From contig NZ_ARWE01000001.1 in assembly GCF_000384395.1 (NCBI RefSeq), positions 2,702,501-2,766,500 of the forward strand: 64,000 bases of DNA, read 5' to 3'. The stretch's first letter is position 1; the number at the start of each line of letters is the position of its first letter. The notes below the pieces were generated by a model. The model saw nothing but the letters and a program-made list of their open reading frames with translations, was not told where the DNA came from and did no database searches. The position numbers were made by a program, and so were the translations under genes. Shown here in pieces: positions 35,947 to 54,001 of this stretch. The stretch is from Geopsychrobacter electrodiphilus DSM 16401 (GTDB taxonomy: Bacteria; Desulfobacterota; Desulfuromonadia; Desulfuromonadales; Geopsychrobacteraceae).

Positions 35947-37158
35947 TCACCCTCTGCGCTCTTCAATCTGGTCACAGATGTAAGCCCCGATCGGCAGCGC
36001 CGAGGTTGCTGCCGGAGAGGGTGCGTTGCAGACATGCAGGCTGCGCGGGCTTTCAGCAAAGAGAAAATCGTGGACCAGACTGCCATCGGCCATGACTGCC
36101 TGAGCGCGGATGCCGGCGGGATATGGGCGCAGATCACTTAAGGCCAACTGTGGGCAATACTTGCGGACCAGTTGCAGGTAGCCCCGCTTCCAGAGTGAAT
36201 TCTTCATCTCGACCGTCCCCGAACGCAGGTGGTTGCGCATCACCCTCCAGAACCCCGGGAAACTGAGATTATCGATACTGTCGCGCAGGGAAAAGTTGAC
36301 CCGACCGTAGCCTTCGCGCTTCCAGCCGACGACCGCGTTCGGCCCGACGGTTACGCTGCCGTCGATCATGCGCGTCAGATGCACGCCTAAAAAGGGAAGT
36401 TCGGGATCAGGAATCGGGTAGATCAGGTGTGAGACAATATCGTTATAGTCGGTCGGCAGCTGATAGTATTCCCCACGAAACGGGACGATCCGAAAATCGG
36501 CGTCAATCCCGAGCATCGCCAGCACCCGGTCGGCCATCAAACCGGCGCAGCAAACCAGAAAGCGTCCCCGGATCCGTTCGGAACCGTAAACTACCTCGAT
36601 GAAATCCTCTTCCTCATAGAGCGCAGCGACCCTGGCGGACAAACGGATCTCCCCACCCAGCCTGGCAAATTCTTCGAGCATAGCCATGGTGATCTGGCGA
36701 TAATCAACAATGCCGGTGGCCGGCACCAGAAGTGCGCCCAACCCGGCAATGTTCGGCTCGGCCGCCTTGAGTTGCGTGGCACTGAGGATTTCGATCTCAA
36801 TCTCGTTCTGTCGACAGCGCTCGGCCAGATCCTCCATCCGTCCAAGTTCAGCGGCGTTCGTCGCCACCAGTAATTTTCCACAGCACTGGTAGGGGATCTT
36901 ATGGGCTTCGCAAAAGGCCATGGTCGCCCGCGAACCCTCGCGACAAAACTGCGCTTTGAGACTCCCCGGAGCGTAGTAGACTCCGGCGTGGATGACGCCG
37001 CTATTGTGCCCGGTCTGATGGCTGGCGGCGGTCGACTCTTTTTCGAGCAACAAAATTCGCGCGGCGGGAAAACGTTGTTGCAGCTGCAAAGCCGTCGAGG
37101 CCCCGACAATTCCGCCGCCGATCAGCAGATAATCGTAGAGAGTGGTTTCAGTCTTCAA
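35947..37158 (-). CDS. lhgO: L-2-hydroxyglutarate oxidase/dehydrogenase (FAD-dependent)
   Basis: About 403 residues. The N-terminal FAD-binding motif is YLLIGGGIVGASTALQLQ. The family's HNSGVIHAGVYY and FRGEYYQL segments identify the LhgO/L2HGDH group, which oxidises L-2-hydroxyglutarate to 2-oxoglutarate. The likely start is TTG at 37158 with AAGGAGG nine bases upstream; a GTG at 37179 would place the ribosome site inside the coding region. It overlaps the end of the APC permease gene by 11 bases. In E. coli LhgO works in lysine-glutarate catabolism, which is notable beside the lysine cluster, but no CsiD homologue is seen here. Confidence 0.88.
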   Translation of the reverse strand: MKTETTLYDYLLIGGGIVGASTALQLQQRFPAARILLLEKESTAASHQTGHNSGVIHAGVYYAPGSLKAQFCREGSRATMAFCEAHKIPYQCCGKLLVATNAAELGRMEDLAERCRQNEIEIEILSATQLKAAEPNIAGLGALLVPATGIVDYRQITMAMLEEFARLGGEIRLSARVAALYEEEDFIEVVYGSERIRGRFLVCCAGLMADRVLAMLGIDADFRIVPFRGEYYQLPTDYNDIVSHLIYPIPDPELPFLGVHLTRMIDGSVTVGPNAVVGWKREGYGRVNFSLRDSIDNLSFPGFWRVMRNHLRSGTVEMKNSLWKRGYLQLVRKYCPQLALSDLRPYPAGIRAQAVMADGSLVHDFLFAESPRSLHVCNAPSPAATSALPIGAYICDQIEERRG

Positions 37159-39268
37159 CGGGTCGCCCCTCCTTAACACTTAAGTACTCGCGCCGCAGCT
37201 GATGAATCGCTTCAGGCTCACCGATAATTGTCATGCGATCATTCTCCAGCAGCAGGGTATTGGAACGTGGCACCATCATATCATTACCACGACGCAGCAG
37301 GGCGACCAGGCTCCCCTGGGGCAGATTAATCTGATCGAGAGTCCGGCCGATCAATCTTGCCGTGAGCCCGGCGCTGTCCAGAATCATGGACAGACAATTC
37401 TCGTCGCGCAGGAGCAATTCTTTAATTTCCTGTTCATTGCTGGTGCGCTGCCAGATTTCGGCAAACCCTTCATTCTCAACCAAACCGGCGATCTGGGCCA
37501 GAAGTCGCAGATGCAAAGCGGGGTTGTCTTCAGGGCTGATCAGAAAAAACACCGCCTGCACCAGCTGGCTCGTGTGTGCCCCGGGCTGAAGAGGGTGTGG
37601 AACATCGATCTTAAGACCACGCGGGGCACGCACAATCGCCAGATGTGCGTATTCAATCCCCTCGGTCCGAAAATGAGGGAGGGCCACGCCACGGGCCACC
37701 GGAGTTGCACCGACGCGGGTTCCCTCAAGAAACTGCTCACCGATCTCGGTTGGAGAGTGTCCAATCCGGTCGGCGAACCATTCGGAAACAACCTCGACCG
37801 CGACCTCAAAGGTGGTGCGCTCGGCCAGGTTCACCACGTAACTGCTGGCGATGATCTGATCAAAGGGGTCTTTCTGACGCAACCCCTTCTCCTTCATGAT
37901 CTCGCGCAGTTCATAATCGAGTCCCTGCTGACTGAGGCGACCGAGCCGCGCAAAAATATGAAAGATTGCACCGCTGCGCTGGACCTTAAGCCGGGCATAG
38001 CTGCGGTACCAGAGCGTCCCGACGAAGATAAGACCCACAGTAAACAGGGTCGGCAACCAGCCCATCTCAACGATGAACCAGAGCGGGGCGAAGATCCCGA
38101 CCAGCTGCATCCAGGGGTAGAAAGGGGAACGATAGCCGGGATCGTAACTGTCGAGGCCGCTCTCGCGCATGACAATGACGGTGAAACAGATCAGCGCGAA
38201 CATCAGTAATTGAAAGGCACTCGCCAGCTTGGCGATACGCAGCGGATCGAGAAACAAAAGGATCATGACGATACTGCCCACCGTCACCAGAATCGACAAC
38301 ACCGGCACACCGTCACGCAGATGGCTGAAGGCTGACGGCAGCAGGCTGTCACGCGACAATGCCAGGGGGTAGCGGGAAGCGCTCATGGTGCCGGCATTCG
38401 CAACGCTGGTAAACGCCAGCACCGCGGCAAACGACATGATATAGAGCCCGGGTTTACTAAAGAAAACTGCCGTGGCATCCGCCACCGGCGTCATAGTCGC
38501 GGCAAGTTGCGCCATGGGCAGTACGCCGACCATGATGGCTGTCCCCAGGCCATAAACCACGAGCGCCGTCAGCAGCGACAAGAAGACCCCGCGCGGAAGG
38601 TTTTTTTCCGGATCTCTGACCTCTTCCGAGAGTGAGGTCACCGTGGTCACACCCACATAACTGATATAGACAAGTCCGGCGGTGGAGATAATCGAATCAA
38701 AACCGGCCCCAAAAAAGCCATCAAAATGAACCGGATTGATGCTCGGCAGGCCAACCCCGATAAAACCGGCCAACAGCGCCAACAGAAAAAAGACCAGATA
38801 AATCTGCATGCGACCGCTCTTTTTAGAGCCGAACAGGTTCAGAACCCCGATCGCCAGAGCCAGGATAACGGCCAGGGTACGGATATGTCCTTCGCCGATT
38901 TCGGGAATAAAGAGCGCGAGATAATAGCCCATCCCCATCAGGGCGAATGAAACTTTCAGGATCAGCGCCAGCCAGGTCCCCATTCCGCCGATGGTACCGA
39001 ACAGTGGGCCGAGGCTGCGATCGAGGAAATAGTAGACCCCGCCGGCTTTTGGCATGGCGGTACAAAGTTCAACGATACTGAACATCGCCGGAATCAGCGG
39101 GATCGCCGCCAGCATATACGCCAGAACCATGGCCGGACCAGCCTGTGAAGCGGCAATCCCCGGCAACAGGAAAAACCCCGCGCTCAGAGTGGTGCCGGTG
39201 GCGATAGCGTAGACACTGAAGAGGCCGAGCTCTTTTTTCAGTTTCTGTTGTTTGCGAACCGGGAGCAT
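37148..39268 (-). CDS. APC-family amino acid permease with C-terminal EIIA-like and TrkA-C domains
   Basis: About 706 residues from the preferred ATG at 39268 (719 from 39307, which lacks a ribosome site). Residues 1-430 form an APC-type permease of about 12 helices (YAIATGTTLSAGFFLLPG motif in helix 1). The cytoplasmic tail contains a PTS EIIA-type domain with a histidine in VALPHFRTEG, the position phosphorylated in EIIA-Ntr proteins. A TrkA-C-type ligand-binding domain follows (GRTLDQINLPQGSLVALLRRG... LLLENDRMTIIGE). This suggests transport gated by nitrogen-PTS phosphorylation or a small ligand. The substrate is probably an amino acid or amine. It precedes lhgO in one operon. Confidence 0.88.
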   Translation of the reverse strand: MLPVRKQQKLKKELGLFSVYAIATGTTLSAGFFLLPGIAASQAGPAMVLAYMLAAIPLIPAMFSIVELCTAMPKAGGVYYFLDRSLGPLFGTIGGMGTWLALILKVSFALMGMGYYLALFIPEIGEGHIRTLAVILALAIGVLNLFGSKKSGRMQIYLVFFLLALLAGFIGVGLPSINPVHFDGFFGAGFDSIISTAGLVYISYVGVTTVTSLSEEVRDPEKNLPRGVFLSLLTALVVYGLGTAIMVGVLPMAQLAATMTPVADATAVFFSKPGLYIMSFAAVLAFTSVANAGTMSASRYPLALSRDSLLPSAFSHLRDGVPVLSILVTVGSIVMILLFLDPLRIAKLASAFQLLMFALICFTVIVMRESGLDSYDPGYRSPFYPWMQLVGIFAPLWFIVEMGWLPTLFTVGLIFVGTLWYRSYARLKVQRSGAIFHIFARLGRLSQQGLDYELREIMKEKGLRQKDPFDQIIASSYVVNLAERTTFEVAVEVVSEWFADRIGHSPTEIGEQFLEGTRVGATPVARGVALPHFRTEGIEYAHLAIVRAPRGLKIDVPHPLQPGAHTSQLVQAVFFLISPEDNPALHLRLLAQIAGLVENEGFAEIWQRTSNEQEIKELLLRDENCLSMILDSAGLTARLIGRTLDQINLPQGSLVALLRRGNDMMVPRSNTLLLENDRMTIIGEPEAIHQLRREYLSVKEGRPVED

Positions 39269-39360
39269 CCTCACCTCATTACATATGTCAGCTGATTCAA
39301 AGGACATAAATCATATCATAGAAATTTGGTCATCTGTCTTGAGAGCAGAGCATGCCAGAC

Positions 39361-39460: not shown

Positions 39461-39559
39461 TTTTTGACCTATAGCTATGGTTATGAGCCTGCAAACGAGC
39501 TAAAAATTGTACTCAAATCTCCGAATCTTCACTTCAGTCCGTATAGTCCGACAGTCTCC
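39461..39559. repeat. Half copy of the MITE-like element found at 46306-46468
   Basis: About 99 bp align with the right part of the longer element, sharing TATGAGCCTGCAAACGAGC and ending TATAGTCCGACAG. Identity is roughly three quarters by eye. The left terminal repeat is absent. The copy ends exactly at the thiolase stop codon. Confidence 0.7.
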
Positions 39560-40758
39560 TAGACCCTCTCGATGACCAGCGCGATCCCCTGCCCGACCCC
39601 GATACACATGGTGCAGAGCGCACGTTTTCCACCCGTTCGCTGAAGCTGATAAACGGCCGTCGTCACCAGACGTGCGCCGCTCATCCCCAGGGGATGACCC
39701 AGGGCGATCGCCCCACCCAGCGGATTGATTCGCGGGTCATCATCGGCTAACCCGAGCTGCCGGGTACAGGCCAACGCCTGCACAGCAAAAGCTTCATTGA
39801 ATTCCAGAAGGTCAAAATCATTCAAACTCAGGCCGAGTCGTGCCAGCAGCTTTTGGGTTGCCGGCACCGGCCCTATCCCCATAACGCGCGGCGGCACCCC
39901 GGCGGCGGCCATACCCAGTACCCGCGCCCTGGGAGTCAAGCCATGCCGCGCAGCCGCCTGCTCTGTCGCCAGCAGCAAGGCCGCGGACCCGTCGTTGATC
40001 CCTGAAGCGTTGCCGGCAGTGATGCTCCCATCGACAAACATCGCCTTCAACTGAGTCAGCTTCTCCAGCGTGGTTGCACGCGGGTGCTCATCCTGCTCAA
40101 CCCTGAGCGGCTCCCCTTTACGCTGCGGAATGCTGACCGCTACGATCTCATCATCCAGGCGGCCATCAGCCTGTGCCGCGGCCGCCTTCTTTTGGCTCCA
40201 GAGGGCGAAACGATCCTGATCCGCACGGCTGATATTGAACTCACGGGCCAGGTTCTCGGCGGTTTCCGGCATCGAATCGGTGCCGTAAACACTTTTCAGC
40301 TGCGGATTGACGAAGCGCCAGCCGATGGTGGTATCAAAGATCTCTGCAGTGCGCGAGAAAGAAGTGGTCGCCTTGCCCATCACAAAAGGCGCACGCGACA
40401 TGCTTTCAACTCCACCGGCGATGACCAGCTCGGCGTCCCCCGCCTTGATCGCCTGCGTGGCGCTGCCGACCGCATTCATTCCCGAGCCGCACAACCGGTT
40501 AATGGTGCAGGCCGAGACGGTCTCCGGCAGCCCCGCGAGCAGCAAGGACATCCGTGCCACGTTGCGGTTATCTTCACCGGCCTGGTTGGCACAGCCGAGG
40601 ATGACATCATCCACCGCACTCCAGTCCACCGCCGGATTGCGCGCCATCAGGGCCTTGAGCGCAATCGCGGCCAGATCATCGGTACGCACCGCAGACAGGG
40701 CACCGCCGTAACGGCCAATCGGGGTGCGGATCGCGTCACAGATAAACACTTCATTCAT
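39559..40758 (-). CDS. pcaF: 3-oxoadipyl-CoA thiolase (PcaF-like)
   Basis: The 399-residue thiolase cleaves a 3-oxoacyl-CoA with CoA. Catalytic residues are visible: C90 (INRLCGSGMNAV), H355 (IALGHPLGMSGAR) and C385 (CTMCIGVGQG). It is not a generic acetyl-CoA acetyltransferase: segments such as GCANQAGEDNRNVARM, ESMSRAPFVMGKA, DTTIGWRF and ARVLGMAAAGVPPRVMGIGPVPA are characteristic of PcaF/PaaJ, which split 3-oxoadipyl-CoA into acetyl-CoA and succinyl-CoA. It is the last gene of the operon, 20 bp after the aminotransferase, with a GAGGGACG ribosome site. With no aromatic pathway genes near, its 3-oxoadipyl-CoA probably comes from the upstream amino acid enzymes. Confidence 0.93.
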   Translation of the reverse strand: MNEVFICDAIRTPIGRYGGALSAVRTDDLAAIALKALMARNPAVDWSAVDDVILGCANQAGEDNRNVARMSLLLAGLPETVSACTINRLCGSGMNAVGSATQAIKAGDAELVIAGGVESMSRAPFVMGKATTSFSRTAEIFDTTIGWRFVNPQLKSVYGTDSMPETAENLAREFNISRADQDRFALWSQKKAAAAQADGRLDDEIVAVSIPQRKGEPLRVEQDEHPRATTLEKLTQLKAMFVDGSITAGNASGINDGSAALLLATEQAAARHGLTPRARVLGMAAAGVPPRVMGIGPVPATQKLLARLGLSLNDFDLLEFNEAFAVQALACTRQLGLADDDPRINPLGGAIALGHPLGMSGARLVTTAVYQLQRTGGKRALCTMCIGVGQGIALVIERV

Positions 40759-40778: not shown

Positions 40779-42101
<1,323 letters not shown>

Positions 42102-42109
42102 TTTGTCCT

Positions 42110-42796
42110 TTAGTCGTTGAGCGCTTCGGCCAGTTGAGGGCCGAGGAGCAGGCTGCAGGCGGTGCGCTGTTGTACATATTTGAAATTAACCCCCGGGGCC
42201 AGTTCGACAACTTCCAGACCCCGGTCCGTAACCGCGATGACGGCCAGGTCGGTATAGATCCGGTCGACCACCGCTTTGCCGGTCAGCGGATAGCTGCAAC
42301 GCTCGACCAGCTTGGCCTCACCGTCCGAGGTGCAGTGCTGGGTAATCACGTAGATTGTCTTAACCCCGGCGACCAGGTCCATCGCCCCGCCCACCGCCGG
42401 GATGGCGTCCGCTTCGCCGGTCGACCAGTTGGCCAGGTCACCCTGTGCCGAGACCTGCATCGCCCCCAGCACACAGATATCGATATGCTCACCACGAATC
42501 ATCGCAAAGCTGTCGGCATGATGAAAGAAAGCTGCCCCGGGGATAGCTGTCACCGGTTTTTTACCCGCGTTGATCAGCTCGGGGTCTGCCTCGCCTTCTG
42601 CCGGAACCGGGCCCATGCCGAGCAGGCCGTTTTCAGTGTGATAGATCACCTCGCGCCCCTCGGGGACATAGCGGGCGACCAGCTCGGGGATGCCGATGCC
42701 CAGATTGACGTAGGAGCCGTCGGGGATATCGAGGGCGGCGCGGCGCGCCATCTCTTCCCGCCCCCAGCCGATCTTCTGTTTTTCGACGGCGGTCAC
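42110..42796 (-). CDS. pcaJ: 3-oxoadipate CoA-transferase, beta subunit (PcaJ-like)
   Basis: The subunit has about 228 residues. The catalytic glutamate is E55 in YHTENGLLGMGP, the (S/T)ENG motif of family I CoA-transferases. The stretch INAGKKPVTAIPGAAFFHHADSF and GDLANWSTGE resemble PcaJ closely. The start is GTG at 42796, overlapping the alpha-subunit stop (GTGA) with GGAGGC upstream; longer reading back into the alpha gene is out of the conserved region. With PcaI it moves CoA from succinyl-CoA to 3-oxoadipate. SCOT and acetate CoA-transferases share the fold, but the adjacent PcaF-like thiolase favours 3-oxoadipate. Confidence 0.9.
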   Translation of the reverse strand: MTAVEKQKIGWGREEMARRAALDIPDGSYVNLGIGIPELVARYVPEGREVIYHTENGLLGMGPVPAEGEADPELINAGKKPVTAIPGAAFFHHADSFAMIRGEHIDICVLGAMQVSAQGDLANWSTGEADAIPAVGGAMDLVAGVKTIYVITQHCTSDGEAKLVERCSYPLTGKAVVDRIYTDLAVIAVTDRGLEVVELAPGVNFKYVQQRTACSLLLGPQLAEALND

Positions 42797-43503
42797 GGGT
42801 AGCGCCTCCCTTCGGCAATCAGCTGAGCTTCCTGGGCAGGGTTGGTTACTGTAACAACCCGATCGACGAAGATTCCGGGGGTCACCACCACTTCCGGGTC
42901 GATAGCGCCAAGTTCGAGCAGGCTGCCGGTCTGGACGATGGTCGTGGCGGCTGCCATCGCCATGATTGGTGCAAAGTTGCGGGCGGTCTTGTTGTAGATC
43001 AGATTTCCATAGCGATCGGCAGCGACACATTTGATCAGGGCGAAGTCGGCCTTCAAGCCCCGTTCCATGACATAGTCGCGACCATCGAAGTTGCGCAACT
43101 CCTTGCCTGCGGCGAGGGGGGTGTTGACCGAGGTCGCGGTGTAGAAGGCGGGGATTCCGGCGCCACCAGCGCGGATCCGCTCCGCCAGAGTCCCCTGGGG
43201 GACCAGCTCCAGTTCGATTTTGCCGCTGCGGTAGAGCTCCGGAAAAACCGTGGAGCCGAGGGTGCGTGGATAGGAGCAGATCATCTTGCCGACCCGGCCG
43301 TTTTCGACCAACGCCGCCAGACCGACATGGCCGCTGCCGGTGTTGTTGTTGACCACGGTCAGATTTTTTGCCCCCTGATCGATCAGGGCGTGAATCAATT
43401 CAATCGGGCTGCCGGCTTCGCCGAAGCCACCAATCATCACCGTCGCGCCATCGAAGATGTCGGCCACAGCGGCGGCAGCTGAGGCGATCCGCTTATCAAT
43501 CAT
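42793..43503 (-). CDS. pcaI: 3-oxoadipate CoA-transferase, alpha subunit (PcaI-like)
   Basis: The 236-residue alpha subunit has the CoA-binding glycine-rich segment GATVMIGGFGEAGSPIELI and the family stretch GKIELELVPQGTLAERIRAGGAGIPAFYT. RNFAPIMAMAA and VVTPGIFVDRVV are shared with PcaI of Pseudomonas. It pairs with the beta subunit encoded next with a four-base overlap, giving strict stoichiometry. A GAGAGG site precedes the ATG. It follows the KamA-like gene by 34 bp. Confidence 0.92.
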   Translation of the reverse strand: MIDKRIASAAAAVADIFDGATVMIGGFGEAGSPIELIHALIDQGAKNLTVVNNNTGSGHVGLAALVENGRVGKMICSYPRTLGSTVFPELYRSGKIELELVPQGTLAERIRAGGAGIPAFYTATSVNTPLAAGKELRNFDGRDYVMERGLKADFALIKCVAADRYGNLIYNKTARNFAPIMAMAAATTIVQTGSLLELGAIDPEVVVTPGIFVDRVVTVTNPAQEAQLIAEGRRYP

Positions 43504-43537: not shown

Positions 43538-45133
43538 TCAGGCCAGCCGCCGGCGCAGGGTTTCAGCCAGACGTGCTTCGATCTCCTTCAGCTCTTCGGC
43601 GAAGAAATACTTCTCGGTATCGAAGGGAAGCAGCAGGTCAATCTTGTTCTTCTGCTCGTCGTACTTGGCGTGGAAAACCTGGTTCATCCATTCCATGTTG
43701 CGCCCTTCGGTAAACTGCAGGGCGAAACACTTCTCGCCTCCGATCACCGATGTACCCAGGATCGCCAGCTTGCCGGCGGAGATGGTCATGGAGATGTGCC
43801 GTGACGGGCGATTGATGGAGGAGAGTGAATTATAGATCTTGCTGAAAATCCGCTCGATGTCGGCCAGGGGGGCGGCAAAGTAATGATGCTCGCCGGTCGG
43901 TCTGGCGGCGTACATGGAATGGAAGCCGATGCCCAGCATAGCCAGGATATTGGCCAGGTCGATCCAGTTCTGCGCCGACCTTTCGACATCCACCTTGCCC
44001 TCTGCATCAGAGAACAGGCTGATGTGGTTCATGATCGGACTCTGGCTGCGAACCATCACATGATGAGCTTTCAGGCGCCGAATCGCCGCCAGGGTGCGTG
44101 GATTGAGCAGCTCGCGCGGGGTGGAGAAATGCGCCATCCAGGCCATCTGAATACCGTTGTCGTAGAGCAGATCGAAGAGCTCCAGCATCCTGTCGTATTT
44201 ACTCGAGAGGATCATCTCCGGGTGAAAGGTCAGGGCGCGGGAGCCGAGGCGAATGTTGCGGATGTGCCCCAGAGCCGGGTCTTCAATGATCGGGCGGATA
44301 TACGCCTCAAAACGGTTAGCAGGCATGAAGCCGCCGTCACCGCCGGTGATCAGCAGGTCGCTGACTTCAGGATGCTGTTTGACGTAACGATGCAGTTGAT
44401 CAATGTCCTGCTGCAGGAACATGTCCTCATCGCCCCGCACCTGGGCATGCCGAAAGCAGTAGGTGCAGAAGGAGAAGCAGTTCTGGGTGCTGGTGTCGAA
44501 CACCAGCTGACACTGCGGGTACTTGTGCTGGCTGCCGTCGAGAAACTCGACCTCGCCAGTGTCATTTTCAAACCAGGGTTTGTTGAGCTGCTGGTTACCG
44601 TCATGGGGATTGGTCTTCGCGCTGTATGCGGCGACAATGCGGGCACGCTCCCCGGCAGACCCGGCCTTGACATAAGCCGCTGTCGGTTCCGCAGCGATCA
44701 TGCCGGGCTGCGGCAGCACCAGCTGGTAAACCGCGTCGGTCTCATAGTCGTCCCAATTGATGCTGTTCAGGGAATGACTGGTCGCCAGAAAGCGGTAAAC
44801 CTCGATATAGAATTCGCGCTCCCTGATCTGGCTGAGCTCAATCCCGTTCTCTTTAAGAATTTCGCAGACCCGCCGGAAACCGTCGAGCCCCGCGTAATTC
44901 GTACCAACCTTGAACAGAAACGGCTTGGTCTCCAGCAATCCAGAGTGCTGTGGATAAGCGGCCTGCAGACGGCTCAGCAGACCGACCGGCAACAGGTTCT
45001 CCTGCTCAACGAGACGTCTGGCATCAGGCGAGAACTGGTATCGTTCCAGCATCGCTTCAACATCTGCAGACTGCACCGCGCGGTGAAATTTATTCTCGAC
45101 GCCTGACTGCTCGGCCGTGTTCGAACTCTTCAT
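43538..45133 (-). CDS. Divergent KamA-family radical SAM aminomutase (proposed 2-aminoadipate 2,3-aminomutase)
   Basis: The 531-residue protein has the radical SAM cluster motif C219-x3-C223-x2-C226 (CFSFCTYCFRH) and the KamA-like SAM/PLP segment LLITGGDGGFM (260-270). It is over 100 residues longer than classical lysine 2,3-aminomutase (about 416), with an N-terminal extension. The PLP lysine motif PGGGGK of known members is missing; ISAGKLAILG with K455 is the best substitute. It should move an amino group from C2 to C3 of an amino acid using SAM, PLP and a 4Fe-4S cluster. Flanking genes make and use C6 dicarboxylates, so 2-aminoadipate is the predicted substrate. Family is firm, substrate inferred. 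Oxygen-labile chemistry suits an anaerobe. Confidence 0.85.
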   Translation of the reverse strand: MKSSNTAEQSGVENKFHRAVQSADVEAMLERYQFSPDARRLVEQENLLPVGLLSRLQAAYPQHSGLLETKPFLFKVGTNYAGLDGFRRVCEILKENGIELSQIREREFYIEVYRFLATSHSLNSINWDDYETDAVYQLVLPQPGMIAAEPTAAYVKAGSAGERARIVAAYSAKTNPHDGNQQLNKPWFENDTGEVEFLDGSQHKYPQCQLVFDTSTQNCFSFCTYCFRHAQVRGDEDMFLQQDIDQLHRYVKQHPEVSDLLITGGDGGFMPANRFEAYIRPIIEDPALGHIRNIRLGSRALTFHPEMILSSKYDRMLELFDLLYDNGIQMAWMAHFSTPRELLNPRTLAAIRRLKAHHVMVRSQSPIMNHISLFSDAEGKVDVERSAQNWIDLANILAMLGIGFHSMYAARPTGEHHYFAAPLADIERIFSKIYNSLSSINRPSRHISMTISAGKLAILGTSVIGGEKCFALQFTEGRNMEWMNQVFHAKYDEQKNKIDLLLPFDTEKYFFAEELKEIEARLAETLRRRLA

Positions 45134-45175: not shown

Positions 45176-46264
45176 CTAAAGTTTTCCCCCATGCGGGAGG
45201 CCAGAATACAAACGGCCGTTGTGCGTCAGCAGAAATTTATCCAGAGCAATCTCTTCCTGCTTGATGAACCCCTTGTCGGACAGGGTGCCGTTACTCACCA
45301 GCTCGATTACCGCGCAAGCGGAGGCAGCAGTCGTCCAGGAGATGGCCCGCCAGCGACGTCCGCCGATTTCTACTGGCCGATAGGCGTTGACGAACTCCTC
45401 ACGCACCAGATTGCCGAATTTCCAGCCTTCCGCCGAGGCATGGACATAGACCACATCATCGCTCACCGGCGGCTTGGCATTCACCAGAATCTCGCCGGCC
45501 TTCAGGCGGTCTTCGCGCATCAATAGTTCGTGAAAATAGAAGTTCATCAATTGCGCATGGCCGGGATAGCGCATCGTCTTGTAGTCCAGATTTTCGACCA
45601 CGCCGGCGTAGGTCTCACACATGGTGCCCAGACCACCAGAGGTGGTAAAGGCCTCCAGTTCGATGCCATCAATGACGATCTTCTCCAGCCACTCCAGGGG
45701 GGAGACCCACTTGTGTTGCCCGCCTTCGATCACCTCGCAGTCGTTGAGATACTCGTTAACGACCCCTTCGGGTGACCAGTTAAAGGCATAAGAGAGCAGA
45801 CCGGTCGGATTGCTGGGCAGCGCTCCGACCCGCAGCTTGATGTTTCTAATTTTATCCAGTCTGTTCGCCAGAGAAGCGCCGACGATCGCGATGAATCCTG
45901 GGGCCAGACCGCATTGAGGGGCCATGACCGCGCTGGAGGAATGGCTCATTTCGATGATCGCTTTGGTTGTCGGCACATCTTCGGTGAGGTCAAAATAGTG
46001 GATACCCAGTTGACTGGCGATGCTGGCGACGCTGATGTTGAAACTGTACGGCAGACAGGAAATGACCGCGTCGAAGCCGTGCATGTTCTTTTTCAGCGCC
46101 TCACTGCTGCTGACATCCAGAGTCTTGACCGCAAAGGGGTAATCTTCTCGAATCTGCATATCGGCACCCGTGACCTCGAATCCGGTTTCATGGAGCATGA
46201 ATGCCATCAACGAGCCAACCTTGCCCAAACCGAAAACCAGAATTGAATTTATTTTTCTCTGCAT
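45176..46264 (-). CDS. Lysine 6-dehydrogenase-like oxidoreductase (saccharopine dehydrogenase fold)
   Basis: About 362 residues. The Rossmann motif is VFGLGKVGSLM (G12, G14, G17). Later segments GLAPGFIAIVGASLANRLD, LEAFTTSGGLGTM and LDYKTMRYPGHAQL closely parallel Geobacillus lysine 6-dehydrogenase (GVAPG..., LEAFHTSGG..., LEYKTIRYRGHA). That enzyme oxidises lysine with NAD to 2-aminoadipate 6-semialdehyde and ammonia. The ATG at 46264 has GGAG nine bases upstream; an in-frame TTG at 46282 precedes that site. It is separated from the aldehyde dehydrogenase gene by a MITE-like insertion and followed by the KamA-like gene after 42 bp. A saccharopine substrate is the alternative. Confidence 0.87.
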   Translation of the reverse strand: MQRKINSILVFGLGKVGSLMAFMLHETGFEVTGADMQIREDYPFAVKTLDVSSSEALKKNMHGFDAVISCLPYSFNISVASIASQLGIHYFDLTEDVPTTKAIIEMSHSSSAVMAPQCGLAPGFIAIVGASLANRLDKIRNIKLRVGALPSNPTGLLSYAFNWSPEGVVNEYLNDCEVIEGGQHKWVSPLEWLEKIVIDGIELEAFTTSGGLGTMCETYAGVVENLDYKTMRYPGHAQLMNFYFHELLMREDRLKAGEILVNAKPPVSDDVVYVHASAEGWKFGNLVREEFVNAYRPVEIGGRRWRAISWTTAASACAVIELVSNGTLSDKGFIKQEEIALDKFLLTHNGRLYSGLPHGGKL

Positions 46265-46305
46265 TTGCTGTTCTCCATTCAAACTTTTTTAAGAGTGAGA
46301 TTTTA

Positions 46306-46484: not shown

Positions 46485-48017
46485 TCAGATATCAAACTTG
46501 ATCCCCTGAGCCAGGGGCAGAGTTCTGCCATAGTTTATGGTGTTGGTTTGACGCCGCATGTAGGCCTTCCAGGCATCGGAGCCTGATTCACGTCCACCGC
46601 CGGTCTCTTTCTCACCACCAAAGGCTCCACCGATCTCAGCGCCGGAGGTGCCGATATTAACGTTGGCAATGCCGCAGTCAGAGCCGATGACTGAGAGAAA
46701 TTCTTCGGCCTCGAGCATGTTCTGGGTGAACACCGCCGAGGACAGACCCTGTACCACGTCATTGTGCAATACAAGCGCATTCGCAATCTCGCCTTCATAC
46801 CTGATCAAATAAAGGATCGGAGCGAAAGTTTCTTCCTGCACGATTGCGTAGCTGTTTTCAACTTCGACGATGGCGGGGACCACGTAGCAACCAGAGGCAT
46901 AGCCCTCACCTGCAAGGATATCACCTCCATAGGCCAGCGTTCCGCCTTCCTCACCAGCACGCGCCAGCGCGTTTTTGAAATCACTGACCGCGCCTTTGTC
47001 GATCAGAGGACCAACATGGTTGTTCTCATCCAGAGGATTGCCGATTTTCAGGCCACCATAGGCCTTGACCAGCGCCTCTTTGACCTTGGCGTAAATGGAA
47101 TCATGAATAATCAGACGCCGGGTCGAGGTGCAGCGCTGACCTGCGGTGCCGACCGCGCCAAATACAATAGCGGGGAGCGCCATGTTAAAGTCGGCATTGG
47201 GCGTCAGAATAATCGCGTTGTTCCCCCCCAACTCAAGGATCGCCTTGCCGAAGCGGCTGGCAATGGCCTGGGCACCATGACGTCCGACTTCGGTCGAACC
47301 GGTGATCGAGACCAAGGGGAGGCGTTTGTCATTGAGCAGCTTTTCACCAATCGACGCACCCCGGCCGACGATGAGATTAAACAGTCCCTCGGGGAGGTCG
47401 TTTTCGCGGATAACGTCGGCCAGAATATGTTGTACGGCGATGGCGCTTAACGGGGTTTTTGAGGAGGGTTTCCACAGGCTGGGATCACCGCAGACCGCCG
47501 CGATCATGGCGTTCCATGACCAGACCGCAACCGGGAAATTGAAAGCAGAAATTATTCCGACAACTCCAAGGGGATGGTACTGATCATACATCCGGTGAAA
47601 TTCTCGCTCCGAGACGGTTGTCGAACCGTAAAGCTGACGGGACTGACCGACGGCAAAATCACAGATATCGATCATCTCCTGAACTTCACCCTTCCCTTCC
47701 TGCAGGGATTTACCCATTTCGTAGGAGACCAGAGAACCAAGGGCATCCTTATGTTTACGTAACTGCAGCCCGATCTGGCGCACGATCTCACCACGCTTGG
47801 GGGCTGGGACCATTCTCCACTGCTTAAAGGCCTCAACACCCTTGGCGACAAGCCGCTCATAGTCTTCTTCCGAAGCAAGGTAAACGCTCGCGATCTGCTG
47901 ACCATCAACCGGCGAAACGATATTCAGCTCCCCCTGGTCGGTCGTGGTATTCCATTCAATCCCGGTGGAGGCACCGTAGTTTTTAGCCTTAATTCCAAGC
48001 TCTTTCAGAAAATTCAT
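46485..48017 (-). CDS. ALDH7/antiquitin-type aldehyde dehydrogenase (2-aminoadipate semialdehyde dehydrogenase)
   Basis: About 510 residues, matching antiquitin (ALDH7A1) in length. Catalytic residues are N160 (SAFNFPVAVWSWN), E262 (LELGGNNAI) and C296 (GQRCTSTRRLI). The ALDH7 signature includes the GRHGAQAIASRFGKAILELGG region. ALDH7 enzymes oxidise 2-aminoadipate 6-semialdehyde to 2-aminoadipate in lysine breakdown. The ATG at 48017 with GGAG six bases upstream is preferred to the ATG at 48029. This is the first gene of the operon and is divergent from the LysR gene, whose palindromic sites lie in the 200-bp gap. Confidence 0.93.
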   Translation of the reverse strand: MNFLKELGIKAKNYGASTGIEWNTTTDQGELNIVSPVDGQQIASVYLASEEDYERLVAKGVEAFKQWRMVPAPKRGEIVRQIGLQLRKHKDALGSLVSYEMGKSLQEGKGEVQEMIDICDFAVGQSRQLYGSTTVSEREFHRMYDQYHPLGVVGIISAFNFPVAVWSWNAMIAAVCGDPSLWKPSSKTPLSAIAVQHILADVIRENDLPEGLFNLIVGRGASIGEKLLNDKRLPLVSITGSTEVGRHGAQAIASRFGKAILELGGNNAIILTPNADFNMALPAIVFGAVGTAGQRCTSTRRLIIHDSIYAKVKEALVKAYGGLKIGNPLDENNHVGPLIDKGAVSDFKNALARAGEEGGTLAYGGDILAGEGYASGCYVVPAIVEVENSYAIVQEETFAPILYLIRYEGEIANALVLHNDVVQGLSSAVFTQNMLEAEEFLSVIGSDCGIANVNIGTSGAEIGGAFGGEKETGGGRESGSDAWKAYMRRQTNTINYGRTLPLAQGIKFDI

Positions 48018-48049
48018 GACCCACTCCATTGACTCTTAAATAAGGGTTA

Positions 48050-48243: not shown

Positions 48244-49086
48244 ATGGAACTACGCGCCCTGCGTTATTTTATCGCGGTCTATGAGGAGTTGAGCCTGACC
48301 GGAGCGGCCAAGCGCTGTTTCGTTGCTCAGCCTTCGATCTCGGCCGCCATACAGCAACTGGAAGCTGAACTGGAACGTCCGCTGTTCATTCGCCATCCCA
48401 AAGGGGTCACCCCGACCCGGGCCGGGAATAACCTGTATCCCTATGCCCATAAAATGCTCACCGACGTCCAGACAATCAAAGATCTCTTTCACGAGCAGGC
48501 GCCGAAAATCTCCTTGCGGCTGGCAATTATGCCGTTCTTGTCAGGCCAGAACATCAGCCTGATCATCAAAGACCTGCTGTCCACGATTCCAGGACTGAAT
48601 TTGACTGTCGTCGATTTGAGCGAAGAAGCAGACATGCGCATCATCTCCAGCAACCTTGCCAGGCAGGATGAAGCCTTTCATAAGCTCTGGCATGATGAGT
48701 TTGTGCTGGCACTCCCCCTTGGCCACCCGTTCGCCCTGCTGAAATCTGTGCCAATGGCGATGCTGGATCATGTCCCGTTTATCAGCCGGCAACCCTGTGA
48801 TGTCAACGATGCCTGGAACTTCGCTATCCAGAAGAGCAAAATTACCCTCGACACCAAAGCTACGGTCAAAACCGAAGAGTATGCGCTGGACCTGGTTGCC
48901 GCGGGGTTGGGTCTTTCCGTCGTACCAAGCCATTCAACCGGCCTACGCTCAGACATAGAGACCTGTGAGGTCAGCAATCTCAAGCTGGAACGAATTGTCG
49001 GACTGGCCCACAAAAAGGAGCATCCGCTACCGGCTCAATTATTGGACATTATCAACAATGCCAAAATCCGTCTTACCCCGTTGTAA
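48244..49086 (+). CDS. LysR-family transcriptional regulator
   Basis: The 280-residue regulator has an N-terminal winged helix-turn-helix (MELRALRYFIAVYEELSLTG, then KRCFVAQPSISAAIQQLEAEL) and a C-terminal effector-binding domain from residue 90. The start has AGAGGAC upstream. It is transcribed divergently from the seven-gene lysine-type operon and probably activates it in response to a pathway intermediate such as lysine or 2-aminoadipate. Its 3' end overlaps the end of the convergent DMT transporter gene by 14 bases. Confidence 0.93.
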   Translation: MELRALRYFIAVYEELSLTGAAKRCFVAQPSISAAIQQLEAELERPLFIRHPKGVTPTRAGNNLYPYAHKMLTDVQTIKDLFHEQAPKISLRLAIMPFLSGQNISLIIKDLLSTIPGLNLTVVDLSEEADMRIISSNLARQDEAFHKLWHDEFVLALPLGHPFALLKSVPMAMLDHVPFISRQPCDVNDAWNFAIQKSKITLDTKATVKTEEYALDLVAAGLGLSVVPSHSTGLRSDIETCEVSNLKLERIVGLAHKKEHPLPAQLLDIINNAKIRLTPL

Positions 49087-50041: not shown

Positions 50042-51376
50042 CTACAAATAGATCTCTTCCTCAACGAATCTGATCCCCAGGCTCTCTAGTTCATCCAGGA
50101 TAGGAACATACATTTCGGGCATAATGGGGATGTGCACCCCGGCTTGCTTAATGCCACCAGTAATGAGCAGCTTTGTCGCAATCGCCAGAGGGGTCCCTAC
50201 GGTGTACGACATGGCAGTATTGGCCTTATTCTCGCCCTCACAACTCATGGAAGAGATAATGCGCTTCTTTTGCCCATCCAACACAAAATCAAACTGATGT
50301 TGCATGACCAATAGATCCCGATCTTCTGGCCCCATAGCCCACTTCTGTTCCAGAATTTTTTGCAACACCATCGCAGGAGTCGCATCTTTGATCCCACTGA
50401 CCTCATCCGAGAATATACCCAGCCAACGCAGCTTATCCATTACCCCTGAATCCATGGAGAGCCCGAAATATTCGGCCAGATTTTCTTCAGTGCTTTGTCC
50501 TTCCCGGAAGGGAAGAAAACTCTCCAGATACTGGCGATAGCTGAGCAGATGTGAATCGCGCATGACATAGCTGTCGTCGGTGCAACCCAATTGGACGAAG
50601 ATGTCCCAGGCTTCCGAGTAACCGGGGCGGCGCATGGTCCCCCTGATGATGGAAGGGATATCTTTAAGGCCGTACAATGCGCAATAGGGAAGTGAATCCC
50701 GGTTTGGGTAAACCTCGAAAGCACCATAACCGGGGACCTCAACCTTGCTGAGCGTCGAGAAAAGTTTCTGATAGGGAACGTATTTATACTGTCCGTTCTC
50801 TTTGTACTTTGCCACGCCCTGACCGGCAACCACGACGTTGCGTGGGTTCCACGAAAATTTGTAATTCCAGGGATTATCGTCGCTGGTGGGGGCGACCAAC
50901 CCGCCACAAAATGATTTAAAAGACAGAATTTCTCCACCCCTGTGCTTAATCCTGTCGATAACGCGCATGGCTGACATGTGATCAATACCTGGGTCCACCC
51001 CCAGTTCGTTCAGAAAAGACAGCCCTTTTTCACGCACAGCGCCATCAATCCGCTGCATCTCGGGGGAAACATAGGAAGGAGTAAGCAGGTGTTTACCGTA
51101 CTTGAGGCACTCCCTTGCGACAATCGAATGCAGTGACCCAGGCAACATAGATACGACGACATCTGTCTGGGAGATTTCCCTGGCTCTAAGCTTTTGCTGA
51201 TTAATGTTAAATTGAATTGCACGTCCATTGGGATGGTCGGCAATCTTTGTCTGAGCTGTTGCCAATGACATATCACCCACGGTGACTTGCCAGTCATGTT
51301 GCTGAGAATATTTCAGCAGATAATCGATCAGACTGGTCGCCGACAAGCCTGCTCCAATGATAAAAATATTTGTCAT
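50042..51376 (-). CDS. Saccharopine dehydrogenase, Lys9 type (L-glutamate-forming)
   Basis: The 444-residue protein has the length and landmark segments of yeast Lys9. These are GAGLSATSLIDYLL (Rossmann), VVSMLPGSLHSIVARECLKYGKHLLTPSYVSPEM, ELGVDPGIDHMSAM, SFCGGLVAPTSDDNPWNYKFSW, and a C-terminal AMSYTVGTPLAIATKLLITG. Lys9-type enzymes interconvert saccharopine with 2-aminoadipate semialdehyde plus glutamate. In a catabolic direction this feeds the same semialdehyde as the lysine dehydrogenase. No lysine-ketoglutarate reductase partner is encoded in the window. A truncated copy lies at 59767-59936. Confidence 0.87.
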   Translation of the reverse strand: MTNIFIIGAGLSATSLIDYLLKYSQQHDWQVTVGDMSLATAQTKIADHPNGRAIQFNINQQKLRAREISQTDVVVSMLPGSLHSIVARECLKYGKHLLTPSYVSPEMQRIDGAVREKGLSFLNELGVDPGIDHMSAMRVIDRIKHRGGEILSFKSFCGGLVAPTSDDNPWNYKFSWNPRNVVVAGQGVAKYKENGQYKYVPYQKLFSTLSKVEVPGYGAFEVYPNRDSLPYCALYGLKDIPSIIRGTMRRPGYSEAWDIFVQLGCTDDSYVMRDSHLLSYRQYLESFLPFREGQSTEENLAEYFGLSMDSGVMDKLRWLGIFSDEVSGIKDATPAMVLQKILEQKWAMGPEDRDLLVMQHQFDFVLDGQKKRIISSMSCEGENKANTAMSYTVGTPLAIATKLLITGGIKQAGVHIPIMPEMYVPILDELESLGIRFVEEEIYL

Positions 51377-51468: not shown

Positions 51469-52647
51469 TCAGTCCAGTTCCTCCACACGATAATCCACAT
51501 GCATCCCACGCGCTTTAACCTCCGACAGAAAGGTCACAGGGGGAACATGACGCACCGGGGAGAGCACTCCAGCGCCGGTTATCTCGCCAGACAAAATCAT
51601 CAAGGCACCAATGCTCGAGGTGAAGCCCACCGTGCGATTCATGGCGAAAAGGCCTGTAGTAAGGTCACGGTAATCGACCAGATCATAGATCACCTTGATC
51701 TTCCGGCTGGCCTTGATACCCCAGGCTTCGACCCTGAGAAGTGCAAGGTCCTGTTGTTCAGCTGTGTACTGTAGACGGGGTGTAAGCAACTGGGTAATAA
51801 AGCTGCGCGGCGATATTTGGGCGCCACCAACGCTGATAGGAGTGTCGGCGAGCAGGCCGAGATCCACAAGCTTACGCCAGAACTTCGAATGCCCGGGCCA
51901 TCTCAGGGCAAACCGCCCCATTTCTACAAGTTCTTTGCCCAGCCCGAATATCTCCACATACCGTTCCGCATCACCGTTTGGGTAGGCCTCCACCATGCCG
52001 ATTCCTGGGAATTCAATTTCGTGAACGTTTTCGGGTCTGAAAATCTCATTCCCGGGAACAACATGCAGTCGTCCACCTTTAAAAAGCCTGGCCTCGCGCG
52101 TGTAAACCGCCAGGACCCTATCAAATATCCAGGAGATCTTATAGCGAATGGGGCTGTCATCGGCACATTCTGCCGCAGGGATCCCACCACCGTAGGAATA
52201 GAGACCGTGAACTTCATCTAATTCGTCCACAGCCAGTCGCCCGAGGACAAGATCAATACCCGGATCAAGCCCCATTTCCGGCAAGATAATACAGCCCTTT
52301 TCCTTTGCAAGCGCGTCCAGTTCTTGGAGTTGGTAGGTGTAGTTGGAACTCACAAAAGGAATGCCGGCGTTCATGGCGGCCGTAGCAGCAGTGAGGGCAA
52401 GTTCGATGGGCAGCATACAGATGACGATGTCGATACCCAGCGTAGAATATGTCCCGGATAGATCGTTATCCCGGGAGATATCAAGTTTGAGCACTTCTGT
52501 TTTGGTATATCCCATCCGCTCCAGGTACGTTTCGGCATTGTCGAGATTAATGTCAGCAGCAAAAATTTTACTGATCAAGTTACTTTGTTCAAGATCATGG
52601 ATGACGGCCTTGCCTTGAAGGCCCATTCCAAGCACGATTGCTATCAT
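51469..52647 (-). CDS. Saccharopine-dehydrogenase-like oxidoreductase, paralogue A
   Basis: The 392-residue protein has a Rossmann motif VLGMGLQGKAVIHDLEQS and the family segments PEMGLDPGIDLVLGRLAVDELD, LYSYGGGIPAAE and FAMNRTVGFTSSIGALMILSG. It is closest to its downstream neighbour at 52793 and resembles the protein at 61176. It is shorter than Lys9 because the C-terminal substrate domain lacks an insertion. It probably cleaves or forms a secondary-amine (opine-like) amino acid, or deaminates an amino acid as lysine 6-dehydrogenase does. The ATG has GGAG nine bases upstream. Substrate unknown. Confidence 0.8.
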   Translation of the reverse strand: MIAIVLGMGLQGKAVIHDLEQSNLISKIFAADINLDNAETYLERMGYTKTEVLKLDISRDNDLSGTYSTLGIDIVICMLPIELALTAATAAMNAGIPFVSSNYTYQLQELDALAKEKGCIILPEMGLDPGIDLVLGRLAVDELDEVHGLYSYGGGIPAAECADDSPIRYKISWIFDRVLAVYTREARLFKGGRLHVVPGNEIFRPENVHEIEFPGIGMVEAYPNGDAERYVEIFGLGKELVEMGRFALRWPGHSKFWRKLVDLGLLADTPISVGGAQISPRSFITQLLTPRLQYTAEQQDLALLRVEAWGIKASRKIKVIYDLVDYRDLTTGLFAMNRTVGFTSSIGALMILSGEITGAGVLSPVRHVPPVTFLSEVKARGMHVDYRVEELD

Positions 52648-52792: not shown

Positions 52793-54001
52793 TTATGCCA
52801 CGGGCGTTGAAGTTGGCTCATACCGACCAAGATCAATATCTTCAACCCGGCACTGCGACCGGATGCCAACCAGTTCAAGTTCCCTTAAAAAATCTTCTGT
52901 GGGAACGTCTTTTATTGGCGAAAGGACCCCTGGTGCATTGATTTTCCCGGAGAGGATCATCTTCGCTGCTATGGCGGTGGTGTAACCAACAGTACGATTC
53001 ATGGCAAAAAGCCCGGTTTCAAGGTCCCGGCTATCGATAAGATCCCAGGTAACCCGCTTTCCGACACCATCTTTTTCACCCCAGGCCTCTACACGTATAA
53101 TTACAATGTCTTTTTCCCCATCGGCGTATTGCAGTTTGGGGGAGAGGGCTTTGACCAGAAACTCCCGAGGAGATACAGGTAGAGTATCTGCGGGTTTATC
53201 TGCCAGCAGGCCCAAGTCGGCCATGGTCCCCCAGAAGCCGCAATGTCCGGGCCAGCGCAACGCAAAACGGCCCATGTGACGAATGTTTTTATCCAGGCCG
53301 AAGGCTGAGATGAACTTTGCGGCGTCTCCGTTGGGATAGGCCTCCATCGATCCCAGCCCCGCAATATCAACCATGTGGGTATTTTCCGGCTTAAAAATCG
53401 AGTTTCCAGGGATATCGATCTGTTCTCCCTCCCTGATGACAACGGCATCCCGGGCGTAGGCTTTCAGTACCCCTTCAAATGACCAGGAGATCTTGTAACT
53501 CAGAGGGTTATCATCTTTGTGGGCTGGCTCGGGCACCCCACCCCCGTAAGAGTAAAGGCCATCCACCCGATCCAGCATGCCCACGGCAATTCCGCCCAGG
53601 ATAAGATCGATTCCAGGATCCAATCCCATTTCCGGGAGCATAATAACCCCTTTAGCCTTAGCCTCTCGATCCATAAGGGCAATTTCTCCAGCATATCCAG
53701 AGGAGACGAAATGGATACCCGCATCGAGTGCGGCCCGGGCCACGCTGCTCCCGAACTCCACCGGCAGCATCATGATAACGAGATCAGCACCCGACTGGCT
53801 GACGCTTTTGTGCAACTCGCTCTCACTTTTGGCATTCAGCGCCCCGGTGGTTATCTTCTTAAAGCCGATCTCAGCGACATATTTATTAATCGAGTCCAGG
53901 TTATTATCCAGAACCAGAATCTCTTTCACCAGAGGACTCTTTTCCAGACTTTGCGCAACAGCTTTCCCCTGTAACCCCATCCCCAGTAGTAATACTTTCA
54001 T
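52793..54001 (-). CDS. Saccharopine-dehydrogenase-like oxidoreductase, paralogue B
   Basis: The 402-residue protein starts MKVLLLGMGLQGKAVAQSLEKS and shares MLPEMGLDPGIDLILGGIAVGMLD, LYSYGGGVPEPAHKDDNP and GLFAMNRTVGYTTAIAAKMILSG with paralogue A, with about half the residues identical by eye. The ribosome site is AAGGAAG. It is followed 43 bp later by the ABC ATPase gene that starts at 54815 in reverse, and it lies downstream of the Aap-like transporter genes, so uptake and oxidation of one substrate may be coupled. Substrate unknown. Confidence 0.8.
   Translation of the reverse strand: MKVLLLGMGLQGKAVAQSLEKSPLVKEILVLDNNLDSINKYVAEIGFKKITTGALNAKSESELHKSVSQSGADLVIMMLPVEFGSSVARAALDAGIHFVSSGYAGEIALMDREAKAKGVIMLPEMGLDPGIDLILGGIAVGMLDRVDGLYSYGGGVPEPAHKDDNPLSYKISWSFEGVLKAYARDAVVIREGEQIDIPGNSIFKPENTHMVDIAGLGSMEAYPNGDAAKFISAFGLDKNIRHMGRFALRWPGHCGFWGTMADLGLLADKPADTLPVSPREFLVKALSPKLQYADGEKDIVIIRVEAWGEKDGVGKRVTWDLIDSRDLETGLFAMNRTVGYTTAIAAKMILSGKINAPGVLSPIKDVPTEDFLRELELVGIRSQCRVEDIDLGRYEPTSTPVA

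Follow-up and report, generated by a model that had tools for sequence, protein, structure and literature searches.

3-Oxoadipate is best known as a product of aromatic ring cleavage. In the classical lower half of lysine breakdown, 2-aminoadipate is deaminated to 2-oxoadipate, which is then decarboxylated to glutaryl-CoA. For lysine 2,3-aminomutase (KamA/AblA) with the solved structure 2A5H, we take Lys337 to be the residue that holds PLP and Arg134 the one that holds the carboxylate, and we assume Asp293 and Asp330 to be the numbers of the two lysine-binding aspartates. According to the available part of PMC3965090, two aspartates bind the lysine side chain in this enzyme, and glutamate 2,3-aminomutase has Lys and Asn in their place. 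In the window, i.e. the analysed stretch of 64,000 nucleotides from Geopsychrobacter electrodiphilus DSM 16401, whose genome is a single contig of 4.24 Mb, a gene termed KAM encodes a protein that resembles lysine 2,3-aminomutase in its fold, its CX3CX2C motif and the columns of the PLP lysine and of Arg134. It differs from KamA/AblA by Arg and Ser/Thr in the places of Asp293 and Asp330, by scores far under the family cut-off and by its linkage to pca genes. In the best-supported reading, which we consider probable, KAM would be a radical SAM, PLP-dependent 2,3-aminomutase acting on L-2-aminoadipate.

Table 1 Features of the KAM gene cluster, with coordinates in the window
Feature	Coordinates	Strand	Length, domains or model match
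LysR-type regulator, divergent, adjoining P6CDH	48244..49086	plus	Pfam HTH_1 + LysR_substrate
P6CDH, L-piperidine-6-carboxylate / 2-aminoadipate semialdehyde dehydrogenase	46485..48029	minus	NF050084, 797.2 bits (cut-off 730)
SDH1, lysine 6-dehydrogenase-like	45176..46282	minus	368 aa; Sacchrp_dh domains (Pfam); best solved relative 3ABI
KAM, proposed L-2-aminoadipate 2,3-aminomutase (radical SAM, PLP)	43538..45133	minus	531 aa
PcaI, 3-oxoacid CoA-transferase subunit A	42793..43503	minus	TIGR02429, 344.2 bits (cut-off 128.5)
PcaJ, 3-oxoacid CoA-transferase subunit B	42110..42796	minus	TIGR02428, 297.9 bits (cut-off 243.55)
AT3, class III aminotransferase, glutamate-1-semialdehyde aminomutase / beta-amino-acid transaminase type	40779..42101	minus	
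PcaF, 3-oxoadipyl-CoA thiolase	39559..40758	minus	TIGR02430, 699.8 bits (cut-off 597)
APC-type amino acid permease	37148..39307	minus	C-terminal PTS_EIIA_2 + TrkA_C domains
LhgO-type L-2-hydroxyglutarate oxidase	35947..37179	minus	NF008726, 592.4 bits (cut-off 299)

The open reading frame of KAM, which had been proposed from the sequence alone, is real, but its orientation had to be corrected to the minus strand (45133 to 43538); the plus strand of the same interval contains three stops. A promoter scan gave 2 sites versus 6.1 in shuffles and was not used as evidence. KAM is indeed 115 residues longer than the 416 residues of 2A5H. The long N-terminal extension described earlier accounts for about 65 of these, since the structural alignment begins at model residue 68 versus chain residue 3, whereas the remainder consists of insertions and a longer C-terminus. 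Three further KamA-like proteins encoded in the genome are shorter (350–363 aa), and no protein of this genome matched the lysine 2,3-aminomutase model TIGR03820 at E 1e-150.

The AlphaFold model of KAM, built from 45 sequences with a mean pLDDT of 83.8, has 2A5H as its nearest solved structure (Z 26.0, 318 aligned residues, rmsd 2.9); the second-best match reached a Z of 10.7 only, and Foldseek concurred on 2A5H (E 3.6e-12). Radical SAM structures rank among the best structural matches, and the Pfam model PF04055 scored 19.8, under its cut-off of 29.5. Judged from the model, the structural relationship of KAM to lysine 2,3-aminomutase is distant but clear. The radical SAM motif noted in the sequence-only reading (C219, C223, C226) and the segment T263-G264-G265-D266 are present, and together with R228, Y408, R411 and K455 they are identical in all 45 aligned sequences of the KAM clade. 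The PGGGGK motif is missing, as that reading had stated, with SAGK in its position. Its description of an altered PLP-lysine motif holds for the surroundings of the lysine only: the lysine itself is kept, because K455 shares its alignment column with the PLP lysine (K337) of 20 out of 20 KamA proteins. A loss of the PLP lysine was thus ruled out.

A direct comparison of KAM and KamA by profiles yields an alignment that stops at residue 365, short of the PLP motif, and the intermediate proteins introduced below were therefore taken as a bridge in a joint alignment of the KAM clade, these intermediates and 20 KamA proteins from related genomes (those with loci, out of 47 KamA matches). The 2A5H residue numbers assigned to KAM positions were counted on a KAM alignment. 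In the joint alignment, R228 falls in the column of Arg134. R411, present in 45 of 45 sequences of the clade, occupies the column of Asp293, and position 448 (29 Ser, 16 Thr) that of Asp330; both columns hold Asp in all 20 KamA proteins. The loss of both substrate-binding aspartates, predicted beforehand, was thereby confirmed. KAM shares with glutamate 2,3-aminomutase the absence of the same two residues and the gain of a basic one, although it carries Arg and Ser/Thr where the available part of PMC3965090 gives Lys and Asn. Because glutamate 2,3-aminomutase alters the same two positions, a side-chain carboxylate is expected for the substrate of KAM, and the exchange of Asp for R411 and Ser/Thr448 would turn the side-chain pocket from acidic to basic, as judged from the alignment alone. 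R411 also occurs in all six intermediate proteins and is therefore not specific to the KAM operon.

In the phylogenetic tree 45 KAM sequences group together on a single branch (support 100/100) that is separate from KamA, in agreement with the distinct clade postulated earlier. The closest row to the KAM of the window is from a Geopsychrobacter metagenome-assembled genome. Five of the six intermediate proteins neighbour the KAM clade and one (L166) is placed elsewhere. The main alignment comprised the sequence of the window and 44 of the 52 KAM loci described below (L027, L029, L030, L032, L063, L066, L075 and L076 were left out), and it was made without the KAM loci from the scan of 195 related genomes. 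KAM scored 65.7 bits with TIGR00238, the KamA family as curated (cut-off 199.2), 52.1 bits with TIGR03820 (525.4), 46.4 bits with the glutamate 2,3-aminomutase model TIGR04368 (650), 42.7 bits with the EpmB model TIGR03821 (369.3) and 56.2 bits with the arginine 2,3-aminomutase model TIGR04468 (600). Since the curated cut-offs are missed by far, the name "lysine 2,3-aminomutase" is unfit for KAM. An assignment as lysine or glutamate aminomutase proper was rejected on the basis of residues and cut-offs.

The genes of the cluster are arranged on the minus strand in the order P6CDH, SDH1, KAM, PcaI, PcaJ, AT3, PcaF, permease and LhgO, and PcaJ begins with a GTG at 42796 that overlaps the stop codon (TGA) of PcaI. 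The best solved relatives of P6CDH include alpha-aminoadipic semialdehyde dehydrogenases (antiquitin), and its predicted product is 2-aminoadipate. SDH1 is related to 3ABI (PH1688; E 2.1e-19), to 3ic5, a putative saccharopine dehydrogenase of 118 residues (2.2e-13), and to a saccharopine reductase (1.3e-5). PH1688 is presumably a lysine 6-dehydrogenase; the structure entry itself says 'putative uncharacterized protein'. SDH1 gave no match to the lysine 6-dehydrogenase model of NCBIfam, though 3ABI ranks first among its solved relatives. The models matched by PcaI and PcaJ describe broad 3-oxoacid subfamilies; of the three proteins, PcaF alone matches a model specific to the adipyl compound. 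Each of the 14 PcaF proteins scanned, i.e. that of the window and 13 of the 30 found at related loci, passes E 1e-179, which is about the 3-oxoadipyl-CoA thiolase cut-off. The best solved relative of AT3 is 6K8H (E 1.2e-119), a transaminase whose substrates are beta- and gamma-amino acids according to the available part of PMC10589169, and AT3 scored 328.2 bits with the hemL model TIGR00713, under the cut-off of 527.3. We propose that AT3 is a 3-aminoadipate transaminase. The permease is a probable uptake protein; its fusion to PTS EIIA-like and TrkA_C domains is a combination that we judge unusual. Among the 52 related loci, 8 contain a match to the regulator.

With P6CDH upstream and PcaF downstream in the operon, 2-aminoadipate, already suggested as substrate in the sequence-only reading, is strongly favoured. 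That the operon as a whole outlines a pathway goes beyond that reading. Were KAM instead a lysine 2,3-aminomutase, it would form beta-lysine from lysine; transamination at C3, activation and cleavage would then lead to 4-aminobutyryl-CoA and acetyl-CoA. The fold matches that enzyme and lysine genes are close by, but both lysine-binding aspartates are gone, one in favour of an invariant Arg, the TIGR03820 score is about a tenth of the cut-off, the adjacent P6CDH works on a lysine carbon already oxidised at C6, and every PcaF scanned is assigned to the 3-oxoadipyl-CoA thiolases. We consider this alternative very unlikely.

For KAM as a 2-aminoadipate mutase we propose the following mechanism. 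As in lysine 2,3-aminomutase, SAM would be cleaved by a [4Fe-4S] cluster bound to C219, C223 and C226. K455 would hold the PLP that carries the substrate, R228 would bind the alpha-carboxylate, and R411, the replacement of the lysine-binding Asp293, would bind the C6 carboxylate. The 5'-deoxyadenosyl radical would then cause the amino group to migrate to C3 from C2, giving 3-aminoadipate. AT3 would transaminate this to 3-oxoadipate, PcaIJ would activate it, and PcaF would split the product to succinyl-CoA and acetyl-CoA. In the genome of the window, 2-aminoadipate would be formed from lysine by SDH1 and P6CDH. The types of the domains, the match in fold, the corresponding residues, the clade and the conserved order of the genes are observed; the use of PLP and SAM, the substrate and its origin from lysine are inferred. 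In this order, which we infer from the predicted functions, each cluster enzyme fits one step from lysine via 2-aminoadipate semialdehyde, 2-aminoadipate, 3-aminoadipate, 3-oxoadipate and 3-oxoadipyl-CoA to succinyl-CoA and acetyl-CoA. The same genes could also work in reverse, succinyl-CoA and acetyl-CoA being condensed and KAM providing 2-aminoadipate for biosynthesis. Aminomutases are reversible, and direction is not given by gene order alone. However, thiolases and CoA-transferases of the PcaF/PcaIJ type serve breakdown, and the cluster contains a permease as well as a dehydrogenase yielding 2-aminoadipate from lysine, which makes the reverse direction highly improbable.

The proposed breakdown of 2-aminoadipate would share its last two steps from 3-oxoadipate with the lower beta-ketoadipate pathway (PcaIJ, PcaF), but 3-oxoadipate would derive from an amino acid and not from ring cleavage. 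Of the 50 KAM genomes searched, that of the window included, only 9 had a match to intradiol dioxygenase (PF00775), and the window genome was not one of them; the pca genes were therefore rejected as ring-cleavage genes. Likewise, the upper half would be shared with the known routes of lysine breakdown via 2-aminoadipate (saccharopine, lysine 6-transaminase, lysine 6-dehydrogenase), whereas 2-aminoadipate itself would be isomerised. The LhgO gene, which closes the cluster, is a likeness to the glutarate/L-2-hydroxyglutarate pathway (CsiD-LhgO), as far as this is described in the available part of PMC6265302. In contrast to that pathway, a search of the window genome yielded no CsiD, and the CsiD glutarate route was rejected for this reason.

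A scan of genome contigs revealed at least 52 KAM loci at 52–88 percent identity, a lower bound because the scan requires short exact patterns. By their tree labels they belong to nine named phyla: Thermodesulfobacteriota, Pseudomonadota, Acidobacteriota, Bacteroidota, Ignavibacteriota, Planctomycetota, Actinomycetota and the candidate phyla Eiseniibacteriota and Sumerlaeota. A tenth label, Myxococcota, probably reflects the old name 'Deltaproteobacteria'. With relatives across nine phyla, the KAM reading frame does not exist by chance. Since most carriers are metagenome-assembled genomes, phyla represented by a single genome may reflect binning errors; named strains are Motiliproteus, two Pseudoalteromonas and Photobacterium obscurum. 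For the operon count, 31 of the 52 loci had at least 4.8 kb downstream and the 21 with less were left out; a gene was counted if it had the same orientation, was no more than 9 kb away and showed at least 45 percent identity. PcaI was found in 27, PcaJ in 28, AT3 in 29 and PcaF in 24 of these loci, and 24 have all four. These 24 loci with mutase, PcaI, PcaJ, transaminase and PcaF are distributed over seven of the nine phyla. Close relatives are among them, and one genome contributed both L025 and L075. The Eiseniibacteriota locus (L050) has all four genes on a short flank, and the Actinomycetota locus (L060) PcaJ and AT3 only. Among the incomplete loci, L045 and L063 (Colwellia) have none of the genes, L046 has AT3 only, and L034, L040 and L051 are without PcaF. 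Altogether four Colwellia loci (L043, L044, L045, L063), two of them long enough to count, have KAM but no pca genes in the flanks examined; in three of the four a LysR-type gene (family f4) adjoins KAM. L057 encodes AT3, P6CDH and SDH1 and no pca genes within 4.5 kb of flank. At L066:5036-6768 (G050) the KAM gene is split in two frames, either a pseudogene or an assembly error.

Among the 195 related genomes, 13 including that of the window contain a member of the KAM clade, one of them (G024) as a fragment, and six further matches are the proteins of intermediate type. P6CDH exceeds its cut-off in 11 of these 13 genomes versus 15 of the 182 others (Fisher p 1.8e-9, kinship uncorrected). The two KAM genomes below the cut-off have a truncated copy (G004) or reach 691 of 730 bits (G063); the 15 other relatives carry P6CDH without KAM. 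Of the 52 loci, 37 were traced to genomes (all except L025-L033, L039, L042, L052, L063, L066 and L075). In these 37 further carriers P6CDH is over the cut-off in 13 and near it or truncated in 3, lysine 6-transaminase occurs in 4, and an SDH1 relative (at least 41 percent) in 4, one with an internal stop. LKR was found in 16 of them, 11 at 42 percent or more with the query's own genome counted, and in none of the ten Desulfuromonadales genomes searched alongside. A saccharopine dehydrogenase gene adjoins LKR in six of eight LKR regions (L214-L217, L219, L220), and no aldehyde dehydrogenase was present among the ten neighbour proteins scanned from five carriers.

Around the best P6CDH-type gene of the further carriers, an adjacent enzyme leading from lysine to the semialdehyde was found in 4 of 15 regions, the neighbours of which were scanned only in part. 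This enzyme is SDH1 in G200, lysine 6-transaminase in G210 and G216, and LKR with saccharopine dehydrogenase in G208. SDH1 lies beside P6CDH in the window, L027, L028, L057 and G200, and in L057 both genes directly follow KAM and AT3. Thus, with the SDH1, lysine 6-transaminase and LKR/saccharopine routes each found beside P6CDH, three ways to the same semialdehyde converge on the KAM module. In the Bacteroidales genomes G227-G230 LKR is present, with P6CDH not over the cut-off. At least one of P6CDH, SDH1, lysine 6-transaminase and LKR occurs in 24 of the 37 further carriers, and none of the four was found in the other 13, which include two Pseudoalteromonas, one Photobacterium and three Colwellia. 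These 13 carriers are the chief hole in the argument for 2-aminoadipate. They would agree with another acidic amino acid as substrate, e.g. glutamate converted to 3-aminoglutarate, with the downstream genes taking a five-carbon keto acid. R411 suits any side-chain carboxylate, the CoA-transferase models are broad, and, according to the available part of PMC3965090, the known relatives include glutamate 2,3-aminomutase. However, KAM stays far below the cut-off of the glutamate 2,3-aminomutase model TIGR04368, PcaF is typed for the six-carbon 3-oxoadipyl-CoA, and P6CDH and lysine genes accompany KAM, so that we regard such a substrate as unlikely.

With L-2-aminoadipate as the substrate, KAM would be the basis of an undescribed, oxygen-independent and carbon-conserving breakdown of lysine (or 2-aminoadipate), which we term the 3-aminoadipate pathway. 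We think it reasonably likely that this pathway exists, with its mutase in nine phyla, the five-gene block in at least seven of them and a connection to any of the three lysine routes. It appears new but made of known parts. No description of a lysine route via 3-aminoadipate was found in the open-access literature searched, a scope that leaves most subscription journals and preprints outside; in the available part of PMC9854754, a reference title on lysine 6-aminotransferase prints 'beta-aminoadipic'. If our proposal is correct, the few known radical PLP aminomutases would gain a new substrate, and an abundant amino acid could be burned in a complete new way that is open to anaerobes. By stoichiometry, all six lysine carbons would end up in succinyl-CoA and acetyl-CoA, and 2-oxoacid dehydrogenase, glutaryl-CoA dehydrogenase and oxygenase would all be dispensable. 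The presence of pca genes in bacteria without ring cleavage would be explained. A selective 2-aminoadipate mutase would moreover yield 3-aminoadipate, possibly useful for six-carbon diacids.

Current database labels would also call for caution. A plasmid search with KAM gave 19 records, all below 60 percent identity and with less than 80 percent of the query covered. These distant relatives (29–34 percent identity) are from Streptomyces, Nocardia, Rhodococcus, Mycetohabitans and others, and 13 of the 19 records bear the label 'lysine 2,3-aminomutase', which may be wrong. No KAM relative was detected on viral contigs among 27 matches to two sequence patterns. Sister proteins of about 460 aa with the same Arg and Lys (33–38 percent identical) are encoded at L161:7803-9191, L162:8666-10090 and L164:7950-9326, in three genomes of one family, and adjoin a CmoB-type methyltransferase gene (PF08003). 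Another KamA-like gene (L165:7447-8766) lies near a thioesterase gene and adjoins genes for a beta-lactamase-fold protein and an open frame of 2199 residues, surroundings that look like a natural-product cluster. In the window itself, five saccharopine-dehydrogenase-like genes occur within about 17 kb (45176-46282, 50042-51376, 51469-52647, 52793-54001 and 61176-62351), two of them typed by search and the rest by similarity to those two, with amino acid ABC transporter genes interspersed among them.
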